Virus record (IMG/VR): IMGVR_UViG_3300047564_004306
Span: 1 to 34,598 of that record
Length of the DNA stretch: 34,598 nucleotides
Strand: one strand, 5' to 3'
From: a virus
Every line of letters begins with the position of its first letter. The first letter of the stretch is position 1. The position numbers and the translations under genes were made by a program. Positions 17,501 through 31,943 of the stretch are shown here, piece by piece. The notes beneath the pieces are model-generated. The model ran no database searches, was not told the origin of the DNA, and saw nothing but the letters and a program-made list of their open reading frames with translations.

Positions 17501-20500
17501 TATGCTAGAGGATATTATGAAACCTCTGATACTGGAGATGTAACTACTGCAAGTTCTTATGATGGATTTAACTATGGAACAGAAATCCAGTCTGTAAATG
17601 AATTTAGAAACACTGATATATTAGATGCCAGACCTAGAGTTAGCAACTTTGTAGTTTCTTCTGGATCAAGATCACCATTTGAATTTGATGGGAGATCATT
17701 TACTGGAGGAAATCATAGTACAAGTTATGTTTTAGCGTCGGATGAATCCGAAACACTATCATTTACTTATTATCTACCAAGAATTGATAGGATTTATTTA
17801 ACAAAAGAAGGAATATTCCAATTAAAAGTTGGAGAAGCTGCAGATAATCCAAAACTTCCAGAAGAAGTTTCAAATGGATTAAACATTGCAAATATTGCAT
17901 TACCACCATATCTTTATGATGTAAAGGACGCTGAAGTAACTTTTGTTGACCATAAGAGATATCAAATGAGTGATATCTTTAGATTAGAAAATAGAATCAA
18001 AAATCTTGAGTATTACACCAGTTTGTCTCTTCTTGAGAATAACACAGCAAACCTGTTTATTTCCGATTCTGTAGGACTTAACAGATTCAAGTCAGGATTT
18101 TTAATTGATAATTTCTCATCTGTAGGTGTTCAAGATAATACAGTAGGTGTAAAGAACAGTTTAGATCTACAAAATGGACATCTAAGACCATCTCACTATA
18201 CAACTACATTAAATCTTGAACTTGGATCAGATGCAATTGCTGGTATTGGTACAACTACAAATGCAAGTCAAGATAAAAATTATTTGAGCAATATACTTGG
18301 AACTAATATCAGAAAATCAGGAAGTGTTCTAAGTTTAGATTATGAAGATGTTCTTTGGGTAGAGCAACCTTTTGCAACAAGAATTGAAAACGTAACTCCT
18401 TATCTCGTAAAAACTTGGGAAGGATCTATTGAACTTGAACCAACTGTTGATGTTTGGATTGATGTAAATCGTCTTGAACTCAGAGACGTTAGAATGGAAG
18501 GTTCATTCCTTGGCGTTGCTGAAGCATTAAGAGCGGAAGTTACCGACCAAGCAGATGGATCAAGACTAGGTGTAAGTCCAATTATTTGGAATTCTTGGGA
18601 AACCAATAATATTCGTCAGGATCTTGGACTCACTTTAAGTGCAAGTATGTCTTCATCCTCTAGCACTACTAATGCTGGTGGTGGTAGACAAAATGTAGCA
18701 ACAACAACAAGTATTAATATTGGAGGAAGTGTAAGTTTAACAACGAACTTAGACCAAGCAAGAACTGGTGTTCAGCATACTGTAAGAGAGCAAATTGACA
18801 CAGAATCTCTTGGAGATAGAATTGTAAGCAGAAATATTATTCAATTTATGCGTTCCAGAAACATTCAGTTTACTGGTAGACGCTTAAAACCAAATACTCA
18901 GGTATATGGATTCTTTGATAGTGTTGACGTTAACAATTTCTGTACTCCAAAACTACTTGAAGTCGCAATGAATTCCGGAACTTTCCAAGTTGGTGAGAAT
19001 ATTATTGGTGTTATGCCAACAGCAGAGATTGTTGACGGTTTTGATCAAAGCACACTTCCTTATATTTCTTTCCGTCTTGCTGTTTCAAATCATAAGTATG
19101 GTCCATACGATAATCCTACCGATTTCTATGTTCAGAATCCATACGACAGAGGAAATAATATCCCCGCAAATTATTCTTCAACTAGTACAATATTAAATAT
19201 TGATACTTTTAGTTTATCAAATGAAAGACAACCTGAATTCTGGGGTTGGGCAAGAACTGGAATGATCTTGAGAGGTCAGAGTAGTGGTGCAGTTGCAATA
19301 GTTTCTAATCTTAGATTAGTAACTGATAACATTGGAACAGTGATTGGTTCTTATCTTGTTCCTGATGGTAATATTCCAGGTAATCCAGCATTTGAAACTG
19401 GTAGAACTGTCTTTAGATTAACAAATAGTTCTACTAATACCAGAATTGGTGGTGTTGTAACAACATCTGCTGAAGAGATCTTCTATTCTCAAGGTGATAT
19501 TGATAATACTCAAGAGGTTACACTTTCACTTAGAAATGCAAGGGTAGAGCATGAAGATTTTGAGCAGACCAGAACCTTAACTGCATCATCTGTAGCAACA
19601 GCAAATGCAGGAGCAACTACATCATCTTCAACTCAGATTCAATCTCAAGTTATAAACAACATTACCAATGTAACGAATGTAACTGAAAATATAACCAATA
19701 TAACAAATGTAACTGAAAACATTGTACAAGAACAAGAAAGACGAGATCCACTTGCACAATCATTCTATGTTGATGATGCCACTGGAATTTTTGTTACTAA
19801 ATTAAACATATATTTTAGAACTAAAGATCCAGTACTACCAGTATATTGTCAACTTAGAGAAATTAAAGTTGGTCTTCCAACCTTAAAAATACTTCCATTC
19901 TCTGAAGTTGAAATCGCTCCAGATCAAGTTAATGTATCTGAAGATGCATCGGTTCCTACAACAATTGAATTTGATTCACCAATTTATTTGAATGGACAAA
20001 CTGAATATGCGATTGTTCTTCTATCCGACTCTACAGAATATACTGCTTGGATTTCTAGATTGGGAGAACCAGATGTAACTTCTGCTGCAAATGAAGCAGG
20101 TCAAATTCTTGTTTCTGCTCAGCCAATTCTTGGATCACTCTTTAAATCACAGAATGCTTCAAGTTGGGATGCAAGTCAGTATGAGGATCTTAAGTTCCAA
20201 CTCTTTAGAGCAAGTTTCACTTCAAGTGGTTCAGTTCAGTTCTTTAATCCAACTTTACCAACAACAGGTATTGATGTATTAAGAAAAGATCCATTTGATA
20301 TAGATTCTAAGACAATTAGAATTGGAATTGGCACAACAGTACAAGATCCAAACCTCACCAACGGTAATACCATTATTCAATTGCAATCAAATGCAACTGG
20401 TATTCTAGTTGGAACTGCGGGAACAATATCTGGACTATCAATTACTAATTCTGGTATTGGTTATACTCCAAGTGCTGGTGCAGTTACATATAACAATTTA

Positions 20501-22195
20501 AATCTATCAAATATTACTGGAACTGGTAGAAATGGAACTGCAAATATCACAATATCTGGTGGTGTCGCAGTTGCTGCTACAGTTGCAAATGGTGGAACAG
20601 GTTATTCTGTAGGTGACTTACTAACAGTTTCTTCTATTGGTATATCTTCTGTTGGTAGAAATCTAAGATTGAGTGTATCTAGTCTAAGTGGAGTAAATGA
20701 ACTAATCATAGATGATGTTCAGGGTGACTTTGTTGTTGGTGCAGGTTATACTCTTACTTATATAAACAACTCTGGAGTTACTACAACTCTTAACAGTGCA
20801 TATAGTGGCAATGTAGTAATAACTGGTGCAGTTGAAGAAATTTATGATGGATTGCACTTTAAAGTAAATCAGAGAAATCATGGTATGCACTCTGATGTCA
20901 ATAAAGTAACAATTATTGAGGCAAAATCTGATGTACTGCCAACTACATTATCTGTGAATTATTCTGCATCTTCAACCTCAAGTATTTCTGTTGCAAGCAC
21001 TACAAACTTCACAACCTTTGAAAATGTAAGTGTCGCAAGCACTAATCCTGGTTATGTTCTCATTGGAGATGAAATTATTCAATATACTGGCGTATCTGGA
21101 AATGATTTGACTGGTATTACTAGAGAAATTAATGGAACAAAAGCATTTACACACTCTACAGGTAATCTGGTTTACAAGTATGAACTCAATGGAGTATCTC
21201 TACTTAGAATTAACAAAACACATGATTTAAGTGATGCAAATATTACTGATCAGATTGGTTTAGATTATTACTATCTAAAAGCAGATATGTCGTCTGGAAC
21301 AAACACAACTGATAGAACTGGTTCTGGTTCTCTTCCAAAACTATTCTTTAATGAGTCTAAGAAAACTGGTGGTTCTAATGTATCTGCAACTTATAATGTT
21401 CCATTTGAACTGATTACGCCATCAATTCAAACAATTAGTCCTAAGTTTACGACTATTTCATCTTCTGTAAGAACTATCAGTGGTCAAAGTATTGATGGAT
21501 CAGAAACTCCTTATCTTGATAAGGGATTCCAACCAATAACATTGAATAATACAAATTATTTTGATTCTCCAAGAATTATTGCATCTCAAGTCAACGAAGA
21601 TACAAGATTAACTAATCTGCCAGGAAGAAAGTCATTTACTCTTAATATGAATTTACTGAGTGTTGATGAAAGATTATCTCCATGCATTGACCTGACAAAA
21701 ACTAATATTATTTTCACATCAAATAGAGTAAACCAACCAGTTACAAACTATATCACTGATAGAAGAGTAAATGGTGTTGAGAACGATCCAAATGCATTCT
21801 ATTACGTTTCAAAACCAATTACATTACAAAGTTCTGCATCTTCGATTAAAGTTCTACTGACCGGTGCTATTAATGAGCAGAATGACATTAGAGCATTCTA
21901 CTCAATACAAAATGATGTGGGTGAAAGTCCAATATTTACAGCGTTCCCTGGTTATGCAAACATTTCTTCTGGAGTAGTAGTAGATCCTTCACTCAATGAT
22001 GGATCACCTGATACACTTATTCTAAAGAATTCATTCTATGATTATGTGCCAACACCAAGGTCATTTAAAGAGTATGAATTTACAATTGATAATTTACCAT
22101 CATTTAAGGTCTTTAGAGTAAAACTTATAATGACATCTACGAATCAGGCGATTGTTCCTGTAATACAAGATCTTAGAGTTATTGCACTTGCTTGA
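14594..22195 (+). CDS. DUF4815-type baseplate/tail fibre protein
   Basis: The protein has 2533 residues. The N-terminus (residues 8-75) has the DUF4815 pattern APYFDDY, FKPGYPVQARELTTLQSIL, NQVEQFGNHFFKEG. A Thr/Asn/Val-rich short coiled coil lies at about residues 1688-1712, followed by RRDPLAQSFYV and a beta domain with GQTEYAIVLLSDS, a block common in large T4-like marine phage proteins. GSGY-like repeats occur near bases 20440-20640, and an EIIQYTG...ITR...HSTGNLV module at about 20953-21195. It fills the slot of T4 genes 9-12 and wac, so it is probably the main peripheral baseplate or fibre-attachment protein; that role is inferred. The start has AGGA only three bases upstream, but the N-terminal domain supports it. 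Confidence 0.85.
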   Translation: MSQETNLNVAPYFDDYNEPVIGGKDNNYYKVLFKPGYPVQARELTTLQSILQNQVEQFGNHFFKEGAKVIPGNLTYIQNYYAVQVESNFLGIPVSLYLDNLVGLQIRGENSGVVAIIRKVITSEESERGNITLYIDYYQSNQNNLSTRDFEDGENLITDSNIAFGSTFISAGEGFARTIASNSTAIGSAFALGAGVYFIRGYLVDVTDDTLILDQYTNTPSYRVGFDVIEEIISADVDPNLNDNANGFNNFAAPGADRLKITAQLSKKPIDSFDYPNFIELANVKDGVLRKINKNTEYNLLADEFARRTFDESGDYYIKSFTTFCRDSLNNGKGNNGIYLENQQTSSGVAPSEDLMVYKISPGKAYIRGYEVETISPVLLDAPKPRTTNLIQNQAVNFSFGSSLTLNRSSGAPSIGINTSTTISLRSERVGLSSYAPAGKEIGVARVYDFALESGSYELENQNINRWDISLFDVQTYGDLTLNQPITLSTPTYIRGDSSGATAFLKNNVSVGTALTVYQISGNFINGEKLVFDSTTDTRVSIGFTNYGISEVKSLYANVGSSKTFSADTLQSVSSLIGNGNASISGFSAGVATVTSPTVAFPGIVTTGNLIQYTRPNLTVKSFAKVNKVLTNSIIISGVTTVTGVCDGGISSTTIDVNDLSVLYTRAQTTQNNERLFAPLPKVNIESVDLSNSSLVIRREFDVTITNNSTNTLTSGTDQVFLPFDEERYVLSRSDGTLEILTEDKFQLTNGSTELVINGLGSNDVGAKLIATLRKESVTSKTKRKSFVDSLIVNKSKYNYSGTGSTTKNDGLLYGSYPFGARVQDEKISLNVPDVIKIHGIYESNDTSDPVLPNLTVGSLDGPTAKTDDLILGEEFVGTVSGARGIYSEQLNSSRISFVYLNQNVFQEGEVVEFLESGVNGIAFTLNQGSKNITGDFNFYNGQTLTHYDYSYIQRKQNIKEPTRKIKVVYARGYYETSDTGDVTTASSYDGFNYGTEIQSVNEFRNTDILDARPRVSNFVVSSGSRSPFEFDGRSFTGGNHSTSYVLASDESETLSFTYYLPRIDRIYLTKEGIFQLKVGEAADNPKLPEEVSNGLNIANIALPPYLYDVKDAEVTFVDHKRYQMSDIFRLENRIKNLEYYTSLSLLENNTANLFISDSVGLNRFKSGFLIDNFSSVGVQDNTVGVKNSLDLQNGHLRPSHYTTTLNLELGSDAIAGIGTTTNASQDKNYLSNILGTNIRKSGSVLSLDYEDVLWVEQPFATRIENVTPYLVKTWEGSIELEPTVDVWIDVNRLELRDVRMEGSFLGVAEALRAEVTDQADGSRLGVSPIIWNSWETNNIRQDLGLTLSASMSSSSSTTNAGGGRQNVATTTSINIGGSVSLTTNLDQARTGVQHTVREQIDTESLGDRIVSRNIIQFMRSRNIQFTGRRLKPNTQVYGFFDSVDVNNFCTPKLLEVAMNSGTFQVGENIIGVMPTAEIVDGFDQSTLPYISFRLAVSNHKYGPYDNPTDFYVQNPYDRGNNIPANYSSTSTILNIDTFSLSNERQPEFWGWARTGMILRGQSSGAVAIVSNLRLVTDNIGTVIGSYLVPDGNIPGNPAFETGRTVFRLTNSSTNTRIGGVVTTSAEEIFYSQGDIDNTQEVTLSLRNARVEHEDFEQTRTLTASSVATANAGATTSSSTQIQSQVINNITNVTNVTENITNITNVTENIVQEQERRDPLAQSFYVDDATGIFVTKLNIYFRTKDPVLPVYCQLREIKVGLPTLKILPFSEVEIAPDQVNVSEDASVPTTIEFDSPIYLNGQTEYAIVLLSDSTEYTAWISRLGEPDVTSAANEAGQILVSAQPILGSLFKSQNASSWDASQYEDLKFQLFRASFTSSGSVQFFNPTLPTTGIDVLRKDPFDIDSKTIRIGIGTTVQDPNLTNGNTIIQLQSNATGILVGTAGTISGLSITNSGIGYTPSAGAVTYNNLNLSNITGTGRNGTANITISGGVAVAATVANGGTGYSVGDLLTVSSIGISSVGRNLRLSVSSLSGVNELIIDDVQGDFVVGAGYTLTYINNSGVTTTLNSAYSGNVVITGAVEEIYDGLHFKVNQRNHGMHSDVNKVTIIEAKSDVLPTTLSVNYSASSTSSISVASTTNFTTFENVSVASTNPGYVLIGDEIIQYTGVSGNDLTGITREINGTKAFTHSTGNLVYKYELNGVSLLRINKTHDLSDANITDQIGLDYYYLKADMSSGTNTTDRTGSGSLPKLFFNESKKTGGSNVSATYNVPFELITPSIQTISPKFTTISSSVRTISGQSIDGSETPYLDKGFQPITLNNTNYFDSPRIIASQVNEDTRLTNLPGRKSFTLNMNLLSVDERLSPCIDLTKTNIIFTSNRVNQPVTNYITDRRVNGVENDPNAFYYVSKPITLQSSASSIKVLLTGAINEQNDIRAFYSIQNDVGESPIFTAFPGYANISSGVVVDPSLNDGSPDTLILKNSFYDYVPTPRSFKEYEFTIDNLPSFKVFRVKLIMTSTNQAIVPVIQDLRVIALA
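19666..19719 (+). repeat. 30-base-period repeat encoding an Asn/Thr coiled-coil stalk
   Basis: A 24-base unit starting CAATGTAACGAATGTAACTG at 19666 recurs at 19696 with two changes. It encodes NVTNVTEN followed by NITNVTEN. Together with flanking residues, Ile and Val fall at spacings of 3, 3, 3, 4, 3, 3 and 4, as expected of a short polar trimeric coiled coil in a phage fibre. The fold is inferred from the spacing. Confidence 0.55.
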
Positions 22196-23481: not shown

Positions 23482-24858
23482 ATGCTTAATCCGTTTTTTC
23501 AACAAGGTTCAAGAGAAGAGCAAAGTTTAATTCAAGATCTCATCAACGAACAGTTGAGAATGTATGGTGTTGAAATATATTATCTCCCTAGACAATATGT
23601 AACAGAAAAGTCAATTATAAAAGAGGTAATTGAATCTAAATTTGAAAACGCATATCCTATTGAGGCATATGTGGACACATATGAAGGATATAATGGATTA
23701 GGAACTTTAATGTCAAAATTTGGTATCCAAGAAATGGATGACCTTATTTTGACAATATCAAAAGAAAGATTTGAAGAATATATAACACCATTAATAAAAA
23801 ATATTGCCGATATCAAACTTTCAACAAGACCAAAGGAAGGTGATTTAGTCTATTTTCCTTTAGGTGATAGATTATTTGAAATCAAATATGTTGAGCACGA
23901 AAAACCATTTTATCAACTTCAAAAAAATTACGTTTATCAACTGACTTGTGAACTCTTTAGATATGAAGACGAAGTTATTGATACTAATGTAGATGAAATT
24001 GATGATAATATTGTAGAACAAGGATATATCCAAACTCTTACAATGGTTGGAACTTCATCTACTGCTACAGCATTAACTGGAATTGTTAATGGTGGCGTTA
24101 GAAGAATCACTCTAACAAATAGAGGAGGTGGATATACTTCTTTACCAAGAGTCGCAATATCATCTGCTCCAAGTGGTGGTTTGACTGCGACTGGTATCGC
24201 AACAATGATATCTGGTTTGATTGATTGTAATGGAGTTACGTCAGATAAAATTCAAGGTGTTGAACTAACTAATCCAGGTTATGGTTATACGGTTGCTCCT
24301 GGAGTTAGTTTCATTGGTGGTGGAGGTGTTGGTGCTGCTGCGACAACTGAAATTGCTAACGGTATGATTGGTATTATTACTGTAACAAGTGGAGGATCTG
24401 GATATACTTCACCACCACTTGTTACAATTAGTTCTCCAGGAATTGGAACAACAGCAAGAGCAGTATCTCTAATCAATGCAGCGGGAATTGTTACTTCAAT
24501 TAGAGTTGTAGACGCTGGAGTTGGATATACTGTTGCACCTACAATTACTATTGGTTCACCAAATGTTGGAAGTGTAGGAACTTATATCTTTAATGAAGTT
24601 GTTACTGGATCTATAAGTAGCACTACTGCAAGAGTTAAATCTTGGAGTTCTGTCACAAATGTATTGGAAGTATCTATAATCTCTGGTTCATTTGTTGCAG
24701 GTGAAACAATTGTAGGTGCTGCAAGTAGTGCTAGTAGACAACTTAGAATTATAAACACTGATGATATCAATGATCCTTATGCACAAAATGAGGAGATTGA
24801 ATTAGAAGCGGATCAAATTATTGATTTTAACGAAACAAATCCGTTTGGAATGCCATAA
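23482..24858 (+). CDS. gp14: Neck protein gp14 with inserted beta repeats
   Basis: The protein has 458 residues, against 256 in T4. The N-terminal core matches gp14: GVEIYYLPRQYV (T4 GVECYYLPREYV), EGDLVYFPLGDRLFEI (T4 EGDLIYFPMDNSLFEI) and KPFYQLQKN. The C-terminus ends in an acidic tail with NPFG. Between about residues 190 and 400 is an insertion absent from T4 gp14, containing four repeats of the form VxxITLTNRGGGYTSLPRVAI (bases about 24090-24570). The same GGY-x-PP repeat occurs in the giant protein, gp8 and the DUF4815 protein. gp14 acts with gp13 at the portal exit to complete the head; the insert probably projects from the neck. AGGA at 23471-23474 supports the start. Confidence 0.9.
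   Translation: MLNPFFQQGSREEQSLIQDLINEQLRMYGVEIYYLPRQYVTEKSIIKEVIESKFENAYPIEAYVDTYEGYNGLGTLMSKFGIQEMDDLILTISKERFEEYITPLIKNIADIKLSTRPKEGDLVYFPLGDRLFEIKYVEHEKPFYQLQKNYVYQLTCELFRYEDEVIDTNVDEIDDNIVEQGYIQTLTMVGTSSTATALTGIVNGGVRRITLTNRGGGYTSLPRVAISSAPSGGLTATGIATMISGLIDCNGVTSDKIQGVELTNPGYGYTVAPGVSFIGGGGVGAAATTEIANGMIGIITVTSGGSGYTSPPLVTISSPGIGTTARAVSLINAAGIVTSIRVVDAGVGYTVAPTITIGSPNVGSVGTYIFNEVVTGSISSTTARVKSWSSVTNVLEVSIISGSFVAGETIVGAASSASRQLRIINTDDINDPYAQNEEIELEADQIIDFNETNPFGMP
24090..24570 (+). repeat. Four GGY-x-PP beta repeats inserted in gp14
   Basis: Four protein-level repeats carry GGGYTSLPRV, GYGYTVAPGV, GSGYTSPPLV and GVGYTVAPTI, each preceded by an alternating hydrophobic strand and each followed by a strand ending in Ser/Gly-rich residues. 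Spacing is about 40-55 residues. DNA identity among copies is low. Confidence 0.7.
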
Positions 24859-24866
24859 TATAAATA
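24859..24866 (+). promoter_or_regulatory. Putative T4-type late promoter upstream of gp15
   Basis: TATAAATA is the exact T4 late-promoter core. It begins right after the gp14 stop codon, 40 bases before the gp15 ATG, in one of the few real gaps of the window. Confidence 0.62.
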
Positions 24867-24906: not shown

Positions 24907-25920
24907 ATGTTTGAGTATTTTTACCACGAAATATTGAGAAGAACCATTGTTTCTTTTGGTTCTCTCTTCAATAATATTTCAATTAAGCACACAAATAACT
25001 CTGATGAAGTTGTCAGTGTCATCAAAGTTCCGCTTGCTTATGGTCCTACTCAAAAGTTCTTAGCAAGATTAGAGCAATCTCCAGATCTCAACAAACCTGT
25101 TCAAATGAATCTTCCAAGGATGTCATTTGAATTTATTGGTTTGAATTATGATTCTGGAAGAAAAGTAACACAAACTCAAACATTTATAACATCAACTACA
25201 TCAAATAAAAGTCAGGAAAAAAAGGCATACATGCCAGTTCCTTATAATATGCAATTTGAACTTAGTATTATGACTAAGTTGAATGACGATATGCTTCAAA
25301 TTGTTGAACAAATTTTACCATATTTTCAACCGTCATATAATATGACGGTTAATTTGCTTGAAGAAATTGGTGAAAAAAGAGATATACCTGTGGTTCTTGA
25401 TAGTATCACTATGAGTGATGACTATGAGGGTGATTTTAGTACTAGAAGAGCACTTATTTACACATTAAGATTTACAGCAAAGACATATCTATTTGGTCCT
25501 GTTCTATCTGCCTCTTCGGATATCATCAAAAAAGTTTCTGTTGGATTTATCGCTGCTTCTTCATCAGGTGCAGATTCAAAGGCAGGATCAAGAGATCTTA
25601 CTTACTCAGTAGAACCAAGAGCAATTAAAAACTATACTGGAACTGTAACCACAAGTTTGGTTAATGACATTGGACTATCTGAAACTGAAATAACAGTCGC
25701 TGATGCATCCTCAATTCTAGAAAATACTTACATTGTTATTGATAATGAGGAAATGTATGTTGATTCTAAATCAGGAAATGTTCTTACTGTAATTAGAGGA
25801 TCTGACCAAACTATTGCATCTAACCATGTGTCTGGTGCAGATGTTAAGAAGATTACAACTGAAGATAACCAACTGATTGAAGTTGGTGATGATTTTGGAT
25901 TTGATGGCGGGTTCTCATGA
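24907..25920 (+). CDS. gp15: Tail sheath stabiliser and completion protein gp15
   Basis: The protein has 337 residues, against 272 in T4. It opens with MFEYFYHEILRRTIVSFGSL (T4 MFGYFYNSSFRRYATLMGDL) and carries LSIMTKLNDDMLQIVEQIL and PYFQPSYN, nearly identical to T4 FTRYEDDMFQIVEQILPYFQP. In T4, gp15 caps the finished tail as a hexamer and binds the neck. Residues about 244-318 form an extension not evident in T4 gp15: EITVADASS, YIVIDNEEMYV, LTVIRG, NHVSGADV. A similar module occurs in the DUF4815 protein and the giant protein. The stop overlaps the next start (ATGA at 25917). Confidence 0.92.
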   Translation: MFEYFYHEILRRTIVSFGSLFNNISIKHTNNSDEVVSVIKVPLAYGPTQKFLARLEQSPDLNKPVQMNLPRMSFEFIGLNYDSGRKVTQTQTFITSTTSNKSQEKKAYMPVPYNMQFELSIMTKLNDDMLQIVEQILPYFQPSYNMTVNLLEEIGEKRDIPVVLDSITMSDDYEGDFSTRRALIYTLRFTAKTYLFGPVLSASSDIIKKVSVGFIAASSSGADSKAGSRDLTYSVEPRAIKNYTGTVTTSLVNDIGLSETEITVADASSILENTYIVIDNEEMYVDSKSGNVLTVIRGSDQTIASNHVSGADVKKITTEDNQLIEVGDDFGFDGGFS

Positions 25921-26348
25921 AGATGACAAAAAAATTTGATGACCTAAATGAAACTTTTAATGTTTCTGGCGAAATAGTAGAAACAAAAGTAGAAAGTGTA
26001 GATAAAATTGAAAAAGTTTCATCCTCCATTGAAGATGTAAAAAAAGATTATGAATACACAAGAGGAAATCTTTATTCTCTGATTGAAAAAGGTCAAGAAG
26101 CAATCAATGGTATTCTTGAGTTGGCACAAGAAAGTGAAATGCCTAGAGCATATGAAGTTGCTGGACAATTAATTAAAAATGTAGCAGATGCAACTGATAA
26201 ACTTATGGATCTTCAGAAAAAACTGAAAGATCTTGACGAAGACAAGAGTATAAAAGGTCCAACTAATGTTACTAATGCACTATTTGTAGGATCTACTGCA
26301 GAACTAGCAAAACTTCTTAAAAAGCAGTCAACTGATGAAAACGTTTAA
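25917..26348 (+). CDS. gp16: Small terminase subunit gp16
   Basis: The protein has 143 residues, against 164 in T4 gp16. The middle is a helical, coiled-coil-like region (DYEYTRGNLYSLIEKGQEAI, PRAYEVAGQLIKNVADATDK, LMDLQKKLKDLDED), followed by TNVTNALFVGSTAELAKLL, which corresponds to T4 QNATVFMGSPTDLMDEI. The small terminase binds DNA and regulates the motor gp17. The start at 25917 overlaps the gp15 stop as ATGA; a second ATG at 25923 is a possible alternative. In T4 the gene lies directly before gene 17, but here four genes lie between. Its last 14 bases overlap the next small gene. Confidence 0.88.
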   Translation: MKMTKKFDDLNETFNVSGEIVETKVESVDKIEKVSSSIEDVKKDYEYTRGNLYSLIEKGQEAINGILELAQESEMPRAYEVAGQLIKNVADATDKLMDLQKKLKDLDEDKSIKGPTNVTNALFVGSTAELAKLLKKQSTDENV

Positions 26349-26490
26349 ACAATTTCAAGAAGAGTGGAGTAATAAATATAAAAAGAGTATTGATTGCTCA
26401 AATCCAAAAGGATTTTCTCAACGCGCTCATTGTGCGGCAAGAAAGAAAAGAGCAAAAGGTGAAGAAACTAAATCCAAACCAGTTGAATGA
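26335..26490 (+). CDS. 51-residue basic Cys-containing protein with CTS-like N-terminus
   Basis: The frame from ATG 26335 to TGA 26488-26490 encodes 51 residues. It overlaps the gp16 end by 14 bases and the next gene by four (ATGA). The first residues, MKTFKQFQEEW, resemble the T4 internal-protein targeting sequence MKTYQEFIAE, but the Ile/Leu expected three residues before the cut is Gln here. The rest, DCSNPKGFSQRAHCAARKKR, is a short basic two-Cys module of a type found in marine phage proteins; the following gene is built of similar modules. No strong ribosome site is seen, so translation may depend on coupling. The function is unknown; a head-packaged or DNA-binding peptide is a guess. 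Confidence 0.6.
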   Translation: MKTFKQFQEEWSNKYKKSIDCSNPKGFSQRAHCAARKKRAKGEETKSKPVE

Positions 26491-28418
26491 AGAATCCAAA
26501 GTTCTCACACAAAACACCACATCTAAAAGGGAAACAACATCAGTTAGATCCCAATTTAGATCTTAAACAATTAGTTCATCATGCAGCGGTTCAATACGTT
26601 GATCGTGATGCTGATGGTGATGTGGATGTTTATGATAATCCCAAGAAAAGGACACCTGACGAAAATCCAGTAGATATTAATGTTGGTACTGGATCTAGAA
26701 AACTTCTTGCTAAGCAAAAAGGAGAACTTAAGCATACTAGAACTGGTATGGCATATGAGGATCTTCGCAAATGGTTTGGAACTGGTGGAGAAGGTGGTGT
26801 TGATGGTGGAGGATGGGATAGATATAATTCCGAAGGGGAGAGAATTGGCAAATGTGCTCGTGAACCAGGAGAAGCAAAACCAAAATGCTTATCAAAAGAA
26901 AAAGCAGCAGAAATGTCTAAGGATGAAATTGCTGCAGCAGTAAGAAGAAAAAGAGAAAAAGATCCAGTAGCAGATCGTCCAGGAAAAGGAGGAAAACCAA
27001 AAATGGTATCCAATAAAATAGAAGAGCAATCCAGTGAAGAAAGATATTGTCCAATGTGCAGAAAGAGAGAAAAGAGAATGGATTGTTCTTACGGACCTGC
27101 TATGTGGGATGCAGTAACAATTGGTGGAATCAAAGAATCCAAAAAACCAGAACCAGATCATGAGCACTCAATGGCAAGATCTGAACTTGCAACTATTGAG
27201 AAAGCAGTTAAACGCCTTAAGTCAAAAATGAAAGGTGAGGGAAATATTGAAGCATGGGTACAATCAAAGATTACTAAAGCAGCAGATTATATTGATGCGG
27301 CAGCAGATTATATTGATAGTGGAGAACATAATGTTCAAGGATCAATGGACGAAGCAAAAGATCCTTGTTGGAAAGGATATAAGCAAGAGGGTCTGAAAAA
27401 GAAAGGAACCAGAATGGTTCCTAATTGTGTTCCTGTAGAATCAGTAAGTTTTGAAATTGGTTCTGATCATAGAAGTGCTCAAAAACAAGCAAAGATTAGA
27501 AATCTTGCAAAATCAACAACTAATTCTGGAGAAAAGGAAGCAGCAAAAAGTAAATTAAAAGGTCCATCTTTACCTTTATCTGATGAATATATAATGGAAA
27601 AAAATGTTCCTACGAATCCAAAACTTTGGGCAAAATGGAAGGCAAAGGCAAAAGCAAAATTTGATGTCTATCCTTCTGCATATGCAAATGGTTGGGCAGC
27701 AAAAGGATATAAATCTGAAGGTGGTGGTTGGAAGTCAGTATCAGAGGAAACAATTGAAGATTTAAACGGAAATTCTTTCGTTGAAGTCATTGATTTAATC
27801 AAACCAGATCCAATTGTTTCTGAGGAAAATGGAAAAGTATGTGAGGTTTGTGGAAAGTCTCCATGCGAATGCTCACCAAGAAGACCGATGGGTGGCAGTT
27901 CAGCAAAACCTGGTCTAGATAAAAATTATGTAAAACCAATGGGCGAGTCAGTGAGAATACCAGCAAAAACTGGAAATATTATTCTTGTCACTCTGACATG
28001 GAGAGGAAAGTACTATATGATGAAATTATTCTTTCCACAAACAACCAAACCAAGTCGTCAAGAAGTTCAGGATCAAATTTCAAAGGTTTATCCGGGATCT
28101 AAAGTTCAATCATTTTATATTTCAGACATTAAACCAGGTGAACAGTTTCTTCAGGTAGAAGATTGGCAAAAAGTTAATCGCCAAGACAAGACTGATGGAT
28201 TAAGTCAGAAAGCAGTTAATGCTTATCGCAGAGAAAATCCAGGGTCAAAACTTCAAACTGCAGTCACTGAAAAGAATCCAGAGGGAAAGAGAGCTGCACG
28301 CCGTAAGTCCTTCTGTTCTAGAATGAGTGGTATGAAAAAGAGACTAACTTCTTCAGAAACTGCTAGAGATCCAGATTCAAGAATCAACAAAGCTCTTCGT
28401 CGTTGGAACTGTAACTAA
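26487..28418 (+). CDS. Mosaic protein of short cationic modules, unknown function
   Basis: The protein has 643 residues and starts by ATGA overlap with the 51-residue gene. In order it shows an EF-hand or dockerin-like loop at residues 39-50 (DRDADGDVDVYD); a GGGWDRYNSEGERIGKC and KPKCLSKEKAAEMSKDEI block (about 108-150); CxxC at C188-C191; a helical segment with ITKAADYIDAAADYIDSGE (about 259-282); CWKGYKQEG-VPNCVP (about 294-317); KFDVYPSAYANGWAAKGYK (about 390-410); a Cys cluster at C452, C455, C460 and C462; a beta domain at about 500-555 shared with the next gene; and a C-terminal KRAARRKSFCSRMSGMKK to RRWNC block. Such modules recur in marine phage proteins of unknown role. Its place between the terminase genes suggests a head or packaging link, which is inferred. 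No membrane segment is seen. Confidence 0.75.
   Translation: MKNPKFSHKTPHLKGKQHQLDPNLDLKQLVHHAAVQYVDRDADGDVDVYDNPKKRTPDENPVDINVGTGSRKLLAKQKGELKHTRTGMAYEDLRKWFGTGGEGGVDGGGWDRYNSEGERIGKCAREPGEAKPKCLSKEKAAEMSKDEIAAAVRRKREKDPVADRPGKGGKPKMVSNKIEEQSSEERYCPMCRKREKRMDCSYGPAMWDAVTIGGIKESKKPEPDHEHSMARSELATIEKAVKRLKSKMKGEGNIEAWVQSKITKAADYIDAAADYIDSGEHNVQGSMDEAKDPCWKGYKQEGLKKKGTRMVPNCVPVESVSFEIGSDHRSAQKQAKIRNLAKSTTNSGEKEAAKSKLKGPSLPLSDEYIMEKNVPTNPKLWAKWKAKAKAKFDVYPSAYANGWAAKGYKSEGGGWKSVSEETIEDLNGNSFVEVIDLIKPDPIVSEENGKVCEVCGKSPCECSPRRPMGGSSAKPGLDKNYVKPMGESVRIPAKTGNIILVTLTWRGKYYMMKLFFPQTTKPSRQEVQDQISKVYPGSKVQSFYISDIKPGEQFLQVEDWQKVNRQDKTDGLSQKAVNAYRRENPGSKLQTAVTEKNPEGKRAARRKSFCSRMSGMKKRLTSSETARDPDSRINKALRRWNCN
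26601..26636 (+). other. EF-hand or dockerin-like calcium loop
   Basis: Residues 39-50 of the mosaic protein read DRDADGDVDVYD, with acidic residues at loop positions 1, 3, 5, 9 and 12, Gly at 6 and Val at 8. This fits a calcium-binding loop, with Asp rather than Glu in the last position. Calcium binding is inferred. Confidence 0.5.
27279..27317 (+). repeat. 21-base-period tandem repeat in the mosaic protein
   Basis: The 18 bases GCAGCAGATTATATTGAT occur at 27279-27296 and again at 27300-27317, separated by GCG. They encode AADYIDA-AADYID, extending a helix by one heptad. Exact DNA identity suggests a recent duplication. Confidence 0.8.
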
Positions 28419-28419
28419 A

Positions 28420-28734
28420 ATGAAATCATTTAAAGAATTCCTGTCAGAAAGTGTAAATATTGCAGGAGATTTCAATGGAAATCTTTATATGAATGGTTCA
28501 AATTCTCAACCAGAACCTGTTGGAGAATCTTTTTTTGCTGATGTGGTTTGGGAAGGAAAAATTTATCGTATGGAAGTTGAAGGTAGTATGATGTCAAAAA
28601 CTGAACTTGCAGAAGAACTCCAAAGTGAGTATCCAGGTGCGATAGTTCACAACATTTATCCTTCAACAAATCAAGTATCCAGAGTTAAAAACGTAAAAAG
28701 ATATCAACCAGAAAGATTATCGTGGAGTGATTGA
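28420..28734 (+). CDS. 104-residue protein with capsid-targeting-like N-terminus
   Basis: The first ten residues, MKSFKEFLSE, match the pattern of the T4 capsid-targeting sequence MKTYQEFIAE of internal head proteins. The L-S-E then Ser fits the (I/L)xE cleavage rule of prohead protease gp21. Residues about 36-90 (VVWEGKIYRMEVEG, ELAEELQSEYPGAIVHNIY) form a small alpha/beta domain that is also found near the C-terminus of the preceding gene. The gene starts one base after that gene's stop and lacks a strong ribosome site, suggesting coupling. I infer a protein carried inside the head and perhaps injected; this has not been shown. Such starts are fairly common in marine T4-like phages, so the targeting role needs testing. 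Confidence 0.72.
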   Translation: MKSFKEFLSESVNIAGDFNGNLYMNGSNSQPEPVGESFFADVVWEGKIYRMEVEGSMMSKTELAEELQSEYPGAIVHNIYPSTNQVSRVKNVKRYQPERLSWSD

Positions 28735-28737
28735 TTA

Positions 28738-30015
28738 ATGGCACAGTGGAATAAAAATGAGCAGGATTTTCTAAATCAAGAGAGAAGTCTCTTTGAGGTC
28801 TTTAATATTGCAGATCACTGGGGAAACCAGACGGACTGGAGACCTCAATTCACCAACAACAATCGTCTCAAAGTTGCTCCTTTCCAAACAGTATTCTTTA
28901 ATACTTTCCAGTATGGTAAAGAGACTGATGTATGGGATGAAAGAATAGTTGGAGTTGGAACCGCAATTCACAATGCAGCATCAAGTAATGTGATTATGCA
29001 AGTTGGATCTACTGCTGGTAGCAAAATTGTTCGTCAAACCAAGAATGTGATGAGATACATTCCTGGTAGAGGTGCAACACTCGCATTCGCAATTCGTCTT
29101 ACTACACCACAGGTAGGTATTCGCAGAAGATTTGGATTGTTTGATGAAAACAACGGTGTTTATTTTGAGGATGATGGTGGAACATATTCTTATGTACTAC
29201 GTAGTAGTGTAACTGGAATTGTTACAGAAACCAGAGTATACAGAGACGATTGGAATGGTGAGAAGTTTGATGGAAATGGTTGGACTGGAGTAACTGCAGA
29301 TCCAACAAAACAACAAATGATTTCCATTAACTATGAATGGTATGGTGCTGGCATTGTGCAATTTGCTTGGTTGATGAAGAATGAGACTGTTGCATCTCAT
29401 ACTTTTGAGAACTCAAATACCAATCCAGGAGTGTGGTGTTCTACTCCATTCTTACCAATTAGACTTGAGATTGAAAATGTAACTGGTGTTGCAGGAAATC
29501 ATTACCTATACCAGGGTTCTAATTCTCTTATTCAGGAAGGAGAACCAGAAAAACTTGGAACTCTTTTGAGTATATCCAATCCCATCACAGGGACAACGAT
29601 GTCAGTGTCAAATACATTCTACCCAATTATAAGTCTTCGTCTAAAGTCGAATAACCTAACTGGTGTAATGCTTTTGAGATCATTACAGGCAGCAACCAAT
29701 GATAATACGAATGTGTATTGGAAACTTCTACAAAATGCAACATTGACTGGAGGAACTTGGGTGGACCATCCAGATCCAAACTCCTTTATGCAATACAATA
29801 TAACTCAAACAGCAGTATCTGGTGGAAGCGATCTTTTGAGTGGTTTTGTGATTGGTGGTAGTGGTGGGACTCTAGTTGATCTTGATGTTAGAGCAGCACT
29901 TCAGTTAGGTAGAAGTGGTATTGGAACAATCAGTGATACTTATACTCTTGCTTGTGCAAGTCCTAATAGTAACAAAGCAGCACTTGCAGTTCTGAACTGG
30001 ATTGAGCAGAGGTAA
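28738..30015 (+). CDS. Probable virion structural protein
   Basis: The protein has 425 residues and lies tightly between the cassette and gp17. It begins with a polar segment (WNKNEQDFLNQERSLFEVF), then LKVAPFQTVFFNTFQYGKET, a block with IVRQTKNVMRYIPGRG, and a beta region with RFGLFDENNGVYFEDDGG and YEWYGAGIVQFAW. Similar proteins occur in large phages as virion or tail-associated proteins of unknown role; I recall the pattern but cannot name a defined family. The C-terminal part has Gly/Ser/Thr-rich strands (FVIGGSGGTLVDL). There are no signal peptide or catalytic motifs. GGAG at 28723-28726 precedes the start. Its place beside the terminase gene says little about location in the virion. 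Confidence 0.75.
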   Translation: MAQWNKNEQDFLNQERSLFEVFNIADHWGNQTDWRPQFTNNNRLKVAPFQTVFFNTFQYGKETDVWDERIVGVGTAIHNAASSNVIMQVGSTAGSKIVRQTKNVMRYIPGRGATLAFAIRLTTPQVGIRRRFGLFDENNGVYFEDDGGTYSYVLRSSVTGIVTETRVYRDDWNGEKFDGNGWTGVTADPTKQQMISINYEWYGAGIVQFAWLMKNETVASHTFENSNTNPGVWCSTPFLPIRLEIENVTGVAGNHYLYQGSNSLIQEGEPEKLGTLLSISNPITGTTMSVSNTFYPIISLRLKSNNLTGVMLLRSLQAATNDNTNVYWKLLQNATLTGGTWVDHPDPNSFMQYNITQTAVSGGSDLLSGFVIGGSGGTLVDLDVRAALQLGRSGIGTISDTYTLACASPNSNKAALAVLNWIEQR

Positions 30016-30020
30016 TTTTT

Positions 30021-31664
30021 ATGAGTGATGTATATCTTGGTAATCCTTTACTGAAAAAAGCAAATACTCCAATTGAATTTACTCAAGAGCAAATTGAGGA
30101 ATTTATTAAGTGTAAAGATGATCCTGTTTATTTTGCAAACAACTATGTAAAGATTGTTACTCTTGATCATGGTCTTCAAACTTTTAAACCTTATCACTTC
30201 CAGGAAAAGTTAATTAACAATTTCCACAATCATAGATTTAATATCTGTAAGATGCCTCGCCAGACAGGTAAATCTACGACTGTAGTATCTTTTCTACTAC
30301 ACTTTGCAGTGTTTAATGACAATGTAAACATTGGTATTCTTGCAAACAAAGCAGCAACTGCTAGAGAACTATTAGACAGATTGCAAACAGCATATGAAAA
30401 TCTACCAAAGTGGATGCAACAGGGAATCATCTCCTGGAACAAAGGCTCTCTTGAACTTGAGAATGGAAGTAAGATCCTGGCTGCTTCTACTTCTGCTTCT
30501 GCGGTTCGTGGTATGTCATTCAATATCTTATTTTTGGACGAATTTGCGTTCGTTCCAAATCATATCGCAGATTCGTTCTTTGCATCAGTATATCCAACAA
30601 TTACTTCAGGTAAAAACACAAAAGTAATTATTGTATCCACACCACATGGTATGAATCATTTCTACCGCATGTGGCATGACGCAGAAAAGGGTAAAAATGA
30701 ATACGTTTATACAGATGTTCATTGGTCTGAAGTTCCTGGAAGAGATGAGGAATGGAAGAAGCAAACGATTGCAAACACTTCAGAACAACAATTCAAGGTT
30801 GAGTTTGAATGCGAATTCTTAGGATCTGTTGATACTCTAATTGCACCATCTAAACTCAGAAACCTCGTCTATGACCATCCTAAGACCCGCAGCGCAGGTT
30901 TAGATGTTTATGTGGATCCAGTAGAGAATCACGATTACTTGATCACTGTAGACGTTGCTAGAGGTGTTGGAAACGATTACTCTGCTTTCACTGTTGTAGA
31001 CATAACTCAGTTTCCTCATAGAGTTGTTGCAAAGTATAGAAATAATGAAATCAAACCTATGCTTTTTCCAAGTATCATTGATGAAGTAGGTAGAAGTTAT
31101 AATGACGCATACATTTTATGCGAAGTAAATGATGTTGGAGACCAAGTAGCAAGTATTCTTCAGTATGACCTAGAATATAAGAACCTCCTCATGTGTTCAA
31201 TGAGAGGTAGAGCAGGTCAAATTGTTGGACAAGGATTTTCTGGAAAGAAAACTCAACTTGGAGTTAAGATGTCCAAAACTGTTAAAAAAGTTGGATGTCT
31301 CAATCTCAAGACAATGATTGAGGAAGATAAGTTATATTTAAATGACTATGAGATCATTTCAGAGTTAACAACTTTTATTCAAAAACACAATTCTTTTGAA
31401 GCAGAAGAAGGTTGTAATGATGACCTTGCAATGTGTCTAGTAATTTATGCATGGTTAGTTGCACAGGACTATTTCAAAGAACTTACTGACCAAGATGTAA
31501 GAAAAAGATTATATGAAGAACAAAAGAATCAGATAGAACAAGATATGGCACCTTTTGGATTTATATCTGATGGATTGGATGGAAATAGTTTTGTTGATGC
31601 TGAAGGTGATAGATGGTTTACCGATGAATATGGTGATAGGTCATATATGTGGGAGTATATGTAA
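30021..31664 (+). CDS. gp17: Large terminase subunit gp17 (ATPase and nuclease)
   Basis: The protein has 547 residues, against 610 in T4; it lacks about 80 N-terminal residues. The ATPase has Walker A MPRQTGKSTT (K84), Walker B ILFLDEFAF (D173, E174) and a coupling STPHG (206-210). K84 and D173 are each 82 less than T4 K166 and D255, so spacing is kept. The nuclease has D311 in LITVDVARG, E368 in LCEVNDVG, and D467/D468 in NDDLAMCL, matching the T4 triad D401, E458 and D542. It pumps DNA into the prohead and cuts concatemers, with gp16 as regulator. AGAGG overlapping the previous stop supports the start. The stop overlaps the next ATG. All key residues are present. Confidence 0.97.
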   Translation: MSDVYLGNPLLKKANTPIEFTQEQIEEFIKCKDDPVYFANNYVKIVTLDHGLQTFKPYHFQEKLINNFHNHRFNICKMPRQTGKSTTVVSFLLHFAVFNDNVNIGILANKAATARELLDRLQTAYENLPKWMQQGIISWNKGSLELENGSKILAASTSASAVRGMSFNILFLDEFAFVPNHIADSFFASVYPTITSGKNTKVIIVSTPHGMNHFYRMWHDAEKGKNEYVYTDVHWSEVPGRDEEWKKQTIANTSEQQFKVEFECEFLGSVDTLIAPSKLRNLVYDHPKTRSAGLDVYVDPVENHDYLITVDVARGVGNDYSAFTVVDITQFPHRVVAKYRNNEIKPMLFPSIIDEVGRSYNDAYILCEVNDVGDQVASILQYDLEYKNLLMCSMRGRAGQIVGQGFSGKKTQLGVKMSKTVKKVGCLNLKTMIEEDKLYLNDYEIISELTTFIQKHNSFEAEEGCNDDLAMCLVIYAWLVAQDYFKELTDQDVRKRLYEEQKNQIEQDMAPFGFISDGLDGNSFVDAEGDRWFTDEYGDRSYMWEYM

Positions 31665-31894
31665 TGGATCTAGATAAGCAAATAAAATTAAGTCATTTAT
31701 TGCTTACAGATAGAAAATGTAGATCTTGTGGAGAAGTTAAAAATTTAATTGATAGTTTTTACAGAACTCATAAAGAAAGAGGTCCCGTTGCATCATCATA
31801 TGCGTATGAGTGCAAAGAATGTTCAATAAAAAGAGTTGTCACTAATAGAATGATTTCAAGAGTTTTTGATAGATGGGAATATCCTGACTGGTAA
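31664..31894 (+). CDS. Small zinc-ribbon protein
   Basis: The protein has 76 residues. The start at 31664 shares an A with the gp17 stop (TAATG), and GGGAG at 31651-31655 lies eight bases upstream; an in-frame ATG at 31649 lies inside gp17 and is less likely. Four cysteines as CRSC (19, 22) and CKEC (50, 53), with KNLIDSFYRTHKERG between, resemble the zinc ribbon found before HNH or endonuclease VII domains (CxxCG-xxK-xxxFY...CKxC). No His-Asn catalytic motif follows, so it is a lone ribbon. It may bind DNA or assist packaging, or be the remnant of a nuclease gene; this is inferred. Confidence 0.75.
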   Translation: MDLDKQIKLSHLLLTDRKCRSCGEVKNLIDSFYRTHKERGPVASSYAYECKECSIKRVVTNRMISRVFDRWEYPDW

Positions 31895-31935: not shown

Positions 31936-31943
31936 AATAAATA
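31936..31943 (+). promoter_or_regulatory. Putative T4-type late promoter upstream of gp18
   Basis: AATAAATA lies in the longest gap of the window (83 bases), 34 bases before the gp18 ATG and its GGAG ribosome site. Its placement before the highly expressed sheath gene supports the call. Confidence 0.6.

Follow-up and report, generated by a model that had tools for sequence, protein, structure and literature searches.

We analyzed the IMG/VR virus record IMGVR_UViG_3300047564_004306 over its full length (positions 1 to 34,598; hereafter the window) and found that a small gene lying between the genes for the two terminase subunits, gp16 and gp17, begins with a sequence that matches the capsid-targeting sequence (CTS) of T4 internal proteins at all four of its functional positions. 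This gene, g3, is the third of four (g1 to g4) in the interval. Its N-terminus supports targeting of the product to the phage head, and g1 is probably targeted as well. As far as the searched literature shows, the N-terminal targeting signal is the new part and the gene block itself is known; among the papers listed there we found no description of capsid targeting in cyanophages, the single paper on such targeting that mentions a cyanophage doing so in the title of a reference, and subscription papers and preprints were outside this search. Gene neighbors and database matches place the window among the T4-like cyanophages, its best named relatives being Synechococcus phages, several of them Kyanoviridae. 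We consider it probable that the four genes are a resident part of the variable gp15-gp18 region of cyanophages and encode accessory virion proteins, with g3 as head cargo, g1 loaded without being cut, and g4 at the virion surface.

All genes of the interval are on the plus strand. The small terminase subunit gp16 (25917..26348, 143 residues; PF11053, E = 1.8e-07; phrog_445, E = 2.9e-56) overlaps g1 by 14 bases. In the open reading frame (ORF) call, g1 (26335..26490) encodes a basic protein of 51 residues with a CTS-like start and a KYKKSIDC...AHC module, and it overlaps g2 in an ATGA. The latter (26487..28418) encodes a basic modular protein of 643 residues that belongs to the T4-GC119 family by its DUF6321 domain. 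A gap of 1 base leads to g3 (28420..28734, 104 residues, phrog_1742), 3 bases to g4 (28738..30015, 425 residues), and 5 bases to the large terminase subunit gp17 (30021..31664, 547 residues; PF03237, PF17289, phrog_2). These ORF coordinates agree with the overlaps and gaps reported in an initial annotation of this DNA, which had described four overlapping or nearly touching genes between gp16 and gp17. It had also called three of the products small or modular and basic, which holds for g1 (net charge +8) and g2 (+32); g3 is acidic (-5, pI 4.9), as is g4 (-5). No match to g1 was found in Pfam or PHROG up to E = 1, nor in NCBIfam or PADLOC up to E = 0.01. Membership of a known defense or counter-defense family was rejected for all four genes, none of which matched PADLOC or NCBIfam up to E = 0.01.

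The CTS of T4 IPIII comprises ten residues, of which amber-suppressor tests assigned residues 4 and 7 to targeting and residues 8 and 10 to processing; Asp10 blocked processing and kept targeting, and the T4 protease gp21 cleaves after L/I-x-E (PMC9026906). In T4, IPII and IPIII start with MKTYQEFIAEA and IPI with MKTFKEF. The g3 product starts with MKSFKEFLSES, and M1, K2, S3, F4, F7, E10, and S11 are invariant in the 19 aligned g3 sequences, while position 8 is I or L, or M in a single locus (L034). With FLSE in the window, all four functional positions agree with the T4 signal, which spans ten codons (28420..28449, MKSFKEFLSE) and predicts a cut after E10 and a mature protein starting at S11. 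The g1 product starts with MKTFKQFQEEW (first ten codons, 26335..26364), and F4 and F7 are present in all 14 g1-type N-termini. The residues for processing, L/I at 8 and Glu at 10, are not jointly present: position 8 is Q or R in the 14 N-termini, and position 10 is E in seven, D in six, and S in one. Because g1 has the targeting residues and lacks the processing residues, we expect it to be targeted yet uncut.

In an AlphaFold2 model of g3 (mean predicted local distance difference test [pLDDT] score 71.8), residues 1-14 have no confident structure and residues 37-103 form a beta-beta-alpha-beta domain. A Foldseek search gave a weak match (E = 0.1) to 4lk0_M, of the T7 Gp2/RNA polymerase epsilon (YkzG) fold; the superposition (Z 4.3, root-mean-square deviation [rmsd] 2.5, 49 residues) was equaled by an unrelated Cas9 chain (Z 4.5). 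We set aside the matches to T7 Gp2, phi29 p6, YkzG, and the Cas9 chain as too weak, and read the sole profile match to a solved structure, RPA (E = 0.07-0.1), as chance. T4 IPI was absent among the g3 structure matches listed. The faint likeness of the g3 domain (window 28528-28728) to T7 Gp2, phi29 p6, and YkzG makes a head-delivered, polymerase-binding role conceivable but unsupported.

How specific is the signal? We collected the 80 best IMG/VR loci from a search with gp17 (913,228 bases), 28 of which hold both terminase genes. A loose CTS pattern matched 36 ORFs on the coding strand (20 g3, 13 g1, and 3 other) and 1 on the opposite strand, so the CTS-like N-termini of two products, already pointed out in the initial annotation, lie above chance. 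A strict pattern matched 21 and 0, respectively. For whole phage records, the pattern was altered in three steps. The first form gave 19 matches in 8 records against 4 for its reversed control; six were in T4, namely ipI, ipII, ipIII, the start of gene 61.1, and two further ones. The second form, which requires the cut site and Lys or Gln at position 2, gave 13 matches in the 8 records against none in the control. These included T4 ipII, ipIII, and 61.1, in S-SZBM1 only _191 (g3) and _192, in S-CREM2 only ORF136, and in Sf-CH5 only g3. The third form, with any residue at position 3 and Lys at 2, matched 30 times in 18 phage records, compared with a single match of its reversed control. Of these, 22 fell in the 14 cyanophage records (13 named phages and one IMG/VR genome, G001): 9 NMNAT/cytidylyltransferases, 6 g3, 1 DUF6321 protein, 1 SAM hydrolase, and 5 others. 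The remaining eight were in T4 (ipII, ipIII, and 61.1), Vibrio phage nt-1 (four), and HTVC008M (one, a frame of 30 residues); Sinorhizobium phage phiM12 had no third-pattern match.

Some matches stand outside the cassette. T4 gp61.1 (54 residues, L111:367-531, minus strand) starts with MKTFKEFIKED and aligns with the N-terminus of g3 at 57% across 21 residues; judging by this start, it is possibly an unrecognized T4 head cargo. The phage DSL-LC02 encodes a tagged protein of 357 residues with a net charge of +38 (MKTYREFVAEA; L115, 75987-76016, minus strand), and PSSM2_115 of P-SSM2 (86 residues, net +10, MKSFKQFLEEA; L192, position 100269) adjoins a virion structural gene. In S-SZBM1, the basic gap protein _194 (707 residues, net +65; L113:2254-4377) has an internal CTS-like ITYREFIAEG, resembling the outcome of a fusion with a tagged gene.

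The largest group of third-pattern matches in the 14 cyanophage records is an enzyme. Among 47 IMG/VR homologues of NMNAT, all close relatives of one query (L132-L179; 2 of 49 loci were omitted because the start was missing), K2, F7, L8, and E10 are present in all 47, A11 in 44, and F or Y at position 4 in 41, the other 6 having L4; the form is MK[SN]FxxFLxE followed by A. The NMNAT of S-CREM2 (ORF154, L131:309-1169) starts with MKNFSSFLTEA and that of P-SSM4 with MKKFSAFLKEA, and the second match in S-SCSM1 is gp281 (L130:1020-2249), an NMNAT labeled as virion protein. The SAM hydrolase of S-CREM2 (ORF6, L207:138-1382, minus strand) also fits the pattern (MKDFDSFLEEF), and the DUF6321 protein S-SZBM1_192 starts with MKTFKQYITEA.

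Others have detected several gap proteins and tagged enzymes in purified virions of relatives. In S-CREM2, Table 3 of the proteome study lists 19 peptides for ORF6, 3 for ORF154, 8 for ORF136, and 4 (4.1% coverage) for ORF137 (PMC10665884); the last two are gap ORFs and ORF137 is a DUF6321 protein. The 30 virion proteins listed for S-SZBM1 include the g4-type _190 (3 peptides) and the gap ORF _195 (2 peptides) (PMC9146016, Table 1). NMNAT/cytidylyltransferase has been reported in virions of S-SM1 (as T4-GC190; PMC3037559), S-SCSM1 (PMC9602691), S-CREM2 (PMC10665884), and S-SZBM1 (PMC9146016), and SAM hydrolase in a single study, of S-CREM2 (PMC10665884). The S-SCSM1 record labels the g2-type gp029 and gp031 as virion proteins. 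Hence, published proteomes of relatives put gap products in virions, as the initial annotation had proposed, for S-CREM2 ORF136 and ORF137 and for S-SZBM1_190 and _195, though not for the g3 homologue of S-SZBM1, which is unlisted. Across the four phages with virion proteomes, five of eight tagged proteins (pooled from the second and third patterns) were detected, namely S-CREM2 ORF6, ORF154, and ORF136, the S-SCSM1 NMNAT, and T4-GC190 of S-SM1, whereas 1.47 would be expected if detection followed the share of each genome's proteins found in virions; the crude P of ~0.007, from non-independent proteins, should be taken as indicative only, because NMNAT makes up three of the five and the pattern was altered in steps.

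Several further observations weigh against a general loading signal and against g3 as head cargo. Published descriptions give T4 internal proteins as basic (PMC9026906), a trait that g3 (net -5, pI 4.9), which is acidic in its mature form too, does not share. NMNAT matches the pattern in just 9 of the 14 cyanophage records: that of Sf-CH5 and G001 has Leu4 (MKSLFQFL[SN]EA), S-SZBM1_140 is one residue shorter (MRFRQFIIEA), the S-PM2 enzyme starts differently, and that of P-HM2 gives no match. S-PM2 has no third-pattern match at all, and S-CREM2 ORF136, with Gln2, fits the second form alone. The g3-type gp030 of S-SCSM1 has no virion label in the record, and S-SZBM1 _191 (g3), _192, and _194 are outside the 30 listed virion proteins, as is _193 (PMC9146016, Table 1). 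The authors of two cyanophage virion proteomes say that carry-over cannot be excluded.

We examined g2 in a set of 49 non-redundant g2-type proteins, out of 54 with at least 380 residues, from the window, the IMG/VR loci, and four named phages. They consist of 15 module families in many orders, the most frequent being a g3-like module (48), DUF6321 (46), and RDWF (45), and the net charge is positive in all 49 (+13 to +66). The order in the window is SHKTP-RDWF-YCPLC-MARS-KCWP-NPKLW-G3LIKE-DUF6321, with the g3-like module at about residues 492-547 (27960..28127; phrog_1742, E = 0.01) and DUF6321 at residues 566-640 (28182..28406; PF19846, E = 8.5e-15, 55.6 bits against a cut-off of 28.5). Pfam added DUF5661 in 8 and DUF192 in 5 of the 30 g2-type members scanned. 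DUF5872 (PF19197) scored 20 bits, below its gathering score of 27.5, and no solved structure matched g2 by sequence up to E = 0.1. DUF6321 is not mentioned in the literature that we searched. The records of P-SSM2, P-SSM4, Syn33, S-SM2, and P-HM2 mark T4-GC119 as 'similar to Synechococcus phage S-SM1 protein'. Several structural proteins have this label in the same records, a hint, and no more, that T4-GC119 may be among the S-SM1 virion proteins.

The linkers between modules, delimited by 15 module seeds picked by eye, are rich in [ILVM]xE, with 4.72 motifs per 100 residues compared with 0.60 in modules. In the redundant set, 255 of 310 linkers contain the motif (shuffles, 134.2 ± 7.3), and in 166 of these 255 the last motif ends 0-3 residues ahead of the next module. 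In the non-redundant set, it occurs in 91 of 107 linkers (shuffles, 58.2 ± 4.3; none of 2000 reached 91), and the reversed motif is not enriched (64 against 58.3; reached by 236 of 2000). The strict form [IL]xE occurs in 49 of these 107 linkers (37.4 ± 4.0; 1 of 2000). The window g2 has nine [ILVM]xE motifs (27024..28271; P1 Glu at 180, 217, 289, 371, 420, 446, 453, 487, and 595), and these are candidate prohead-protease sites. The linker motifs are possibly cut by the protease; cleavage of g2 is a prediction, because 236 of 385 linker motifs have V or M at P3 while T4 gp21 prefers L or I. By eye, S-PM2 gp22 and the gp23 N-terminus mostly have L or I. It is an even call whether the motifs are instead acidic flexible linkers or remains of gene fusions, g2 then being one long basic protein such as a DNA-condensing core protein. 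Besides the residues at P3, this alternative draws on the mild rise of [ILVM]xD and [ILVM]xxE in non-redundant linkers (reached by 10 and 15 of 2000 shuffles), on the reversed motif being raised in the redundant set as well (284 against 196.6; forward 385 against 197.3), and on the published table for S-CREM2 ORF137, where its four peptides (4.1% coverage) come with no mapped cut (PMC10665884). The direction-specific enrichment that appears after removal of redundancy, and the placement of the last motif directly ahead of the next module, argue the other way.

Cyanophage late promoters have a core ATAAATA, published as NATAAATA (PMC2984593). The window has seven copies, all on the coding strand, below the mean of 14.5 that chance predicts for both strands together; five of them lie 17-40 nucleotides upstream of an ORF start. 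The copy at 24860..24866 (plus strand, 40 nucleotides upstream of gp15) is the likely start of a late transcript that would include the cassette, and the copy at 31937..31943 (plus strand) lies 34 nucleotides upstream of gp18. Between these two there is a single copy, inside g1 (26372..26378, plus strand, 108 nucleotides before g2), which may be coding only. One late transcript gp15-gp16-g1-g2-g3-g4-gp17 would be the simplest reading. The tight spacing and the lack of a late-promoter motif between 24860 and 31937, save the one in g1, support co-expression with the packaging motor, in line with the initial annotation. Of the 13 IMG/VR loci with g1, 12 retain the overlap between its stop codon and the start of g2 (4 nucleotides in eight, 1 nucleotide in four). 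In the remaining locus (L010), g1 is cut to 42 residues and g2 starts 24 nucleotides later, a point against the reading proposed next.

We propose that the cassette genes are expressed late alongside the packaging motor. The first ten residues of g3 would dock on the prohead core as a T4-type CTS, a gp21-type prohead protease would cleave after Glu10, and the mature protein of 94 residues would stay in the head and may leave it with the DNA. With docking residues and no cut site, g1 would be loaded and remain uncut, and from its translational coupling to g2 we infer that it may go along with g2 or assist in loading it. The product of g2, a basic string of small modules, would probably enter the prohead with g1 and g3 and may be cut between modules, and g4 would sit on the virion surface. 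Since the tag is also on the NMNAT/cytidylyltransferase, SAM hydrolase, and DUF6321 protein of other cyanophages, it is apparently a general cyanophage loading signal. More tentatively, the ten-residue tag might load a whole payload, comprising NMNAT (for NAD synthesis), g3, SAM hydrolase, and DUF6321 proteins of basic charge, that the protease frees while cutting g2 into its small basic modules and that, injected together with the DNA, readies the cyanobacterial cell ahead of any phage gene expression, g2 being a head polyprotein that arose by module shuffling; we regard this as possible and rather doubtful. A T4-type tag on NMNAT and SAM hydrolase would give a mechanism for the puzzling detection of these enzymes in particles. 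If true, an injected enzyme set would join the account of host takeover by viruses of the main marine primary producers.

The g4 product matches phrog_1645 ('virion structural protein') over its full length (E = 2.6e-178) and has no CTS; its homologue S-SZBM1_190 (66% identity) was detected in virions. In the structure model (pLDDT 76.8), residues 1-46 are disordered and residues 49-267 (28882..29538, plus strand) form a concanavalin A-like, GH16-type jelly roll, which superimposes on the beta-glucanase 3d6e_B with Z 18.7 and an rmsd of 2.4 over 171 aligned residues. The GH16 catalytic motif is E[ILVF]Dx(1,2)E. It occurs in none of 27 g4-family proteins; the jelly-roll fold is present and the catalytic trait is not. 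Structure neighbors include proteins of haloarchaeal tailed viruses and giant viruses and virion proteins of S-TIM5. By sequence, a g4 profile matched no solved structure up to E = 0.1; the one match of the protein alone (E = 1.7) was read as chance. According to the model, g4 is likely a glycan-binding virion protein. Because it has a lectin fold and no CTS, we do not count it as cargo. Head targeting, as suggested in the initial annotation, is supported for g3, with four of four CTS positions, and probably for g1, with two of four; the proposal that all four genes encode effectors fails on g4.

The frequent association of g3 with g4 would also fit a role of g3 as an assembly partner. In that case g3 would be a small chaperone of g4 that is not retained in the virion, and its N-terminal helix would dock on a structural protein, hence the likeness to a CTS. 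The two genes co-occur, either in the gap or ~5 kb downstream of gp17, and S-SZBM1_190 was detected in virions while _191 is unlisted (PMC9146016). On the other hand, mass spectrometry easily misses proteins as small as g3, the gene after g3 in S-SCSM1 (gp031, 249 residues) has no BLAST match to g4, and g3-type N-termini are also found on NMNAT and SAM hydrolase, which are encoded elsewhere in the genome. We therefore consider the partner role unlikely.

Millard 2009 reportedly described a hyperplastic region between gp15 and gp18 of cyanophages. In T4, gene 17 comes directly after gene 16, and in the related vibriophage nt-1 gp16 and gp17 overlap. Sullivan et al. 2010, who credit Millard 2009, count gp16-gp17 among the hot-spots (PMC3037559), and Clokie et al. 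2010 report that the g15-g18 region is hypervariable and contains insertions of 4 to 14 genes at a position unique to cyanophages (PMC2984593). In the 28 IMG/VR loci with both terminase genes, the gap measures 690-5690 bp (median 1998) and holds a g2-type gene in all 28 (in L083 a weak match of 26% identity), g1 in 10, g3 in 2, and g4 in 2, with g3 and g4 together in 2. In 17 of these loci the sequence continues for more than 6.5 kb past gp17; downstream of gp17, at a distance of about 5 kb, 11 of them have g3 and 10 have g4. The gene directly upstream of gp17 is g2-type in 53, g4 in 16, and neither in 5 of the 74 loci with at least 150 nucleotides before gp17. From these counts, the cassette consists of g1-g2 and a movable g3-g4 pair. 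In named phages, T4-GC119 genes lie in the gp16-gp17 gap of S-SM1, Syn33, and P-HM2 and before gp16 in P-SSM2; the gaps of S-SM1 and S-RIM2 add petE and carbon-metabolism genes, that of HTVC008M holds a 2OG oxygenase and a tryptophan halogenase, and that of S-PM2 three other small genes. The filled gap, which the initial annotation took for an oddity, is hence usual, and we rejected novelty of the cassette position: the hot-spot is published and 28 of 28 IMG/VR loci are filled, as are, with other genes, the gaps of S-PM2 and HTVC008M. S-PM2 was dropped as a source of virion evidence because the three small genes in its gap are different ones.

Alternatively, the interval could be a common variable hot-spot that collects accessory genes without a relation to one another, and abundant proteins made late could have been carried over into the virion preparations of relatives. 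In further cyanophages the gap also contains petE, PTOX, gnd, and zwf, HTVC008M has its oxygenase and halogenase there, T4-GC119 has been named among the hypothetical genes of a mobile carbon-metabolism cassette (PMC3037559), and carry-over was raised by the authors of two virion proteomes. The presence of a g2-type gene in every one of the 28 gaps (weak in L083) and the concentration of the tag on proteins that were detected in the virions of more than one phage make this explanation quite improbable. Mere chance resemblance to the CTS, a short motif, is scarcely credible: across the 18 records the pattern matched 30 times and its reverse once, in the IMG/VR loci the coding strand gave 36 matches and the opposite strand 1, and the g3 and NMNAT families have invariant positions. 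For the preferred reading, in which the cassette encodes accessory virion proteins, a hot-spot of hypothetical genes becomes predicted head cargo with named cut sites, and scanning for the CTS may reveal head cargo across T4-like phages.

Two other features of the window lie outside the cassette. An ORF of 81 residues with a GTG start (31649-31894) overlaps the end of gp17, and relatives have a gene annotated as endonuclease VII in this position. Stretches of 67-150 residues of the gp14-like neck protein (458 residues, 23482-24858) also match the giant ORF 3-10688 and the ORFs 14594-22195 and 13019-14587.

Overall, the cassette resembles several known systems in part. It occupies the same place as the cyanophage gp15-gp18 hyperplastic region and likewise varies in gene content; the published accounts, in the portions available, stress metabolic genes and do not describe the g1-g4 set or a targeting signal. 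With T4 IPI, IPII, and IPIII, g3 shares the aromatic residues 4 and 7, L/I/M at 8, Glu at 10, a small residue at 11, and a small separate gene, and a gp21 homologue is annotated in relatives (S-PM2p109, SSM1_131). The g3 product differs in its acidity and its gene in its place between the terminase genes, g1 has no cut site, and the mature parts gave no sequence match to a known family. The cyanophage NMNAT/cytidylyltransferase (T4-GC190) has the N-terminal tag in common with g3 but is an enzyme encoded elsewhere in the genome, outside the window. Like the T4-GC119 genes in the same gap of named phages, g2 ends in DUF6321 (PF19846; phrog_727); these families have no assigned function, and the modular build and linker motif are described here. 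Finally, g4 has the full-length match to phrog_1645 and the fold of concanavalin A-like jelly rolls, and its family lacks the GH16 catalytic motif.

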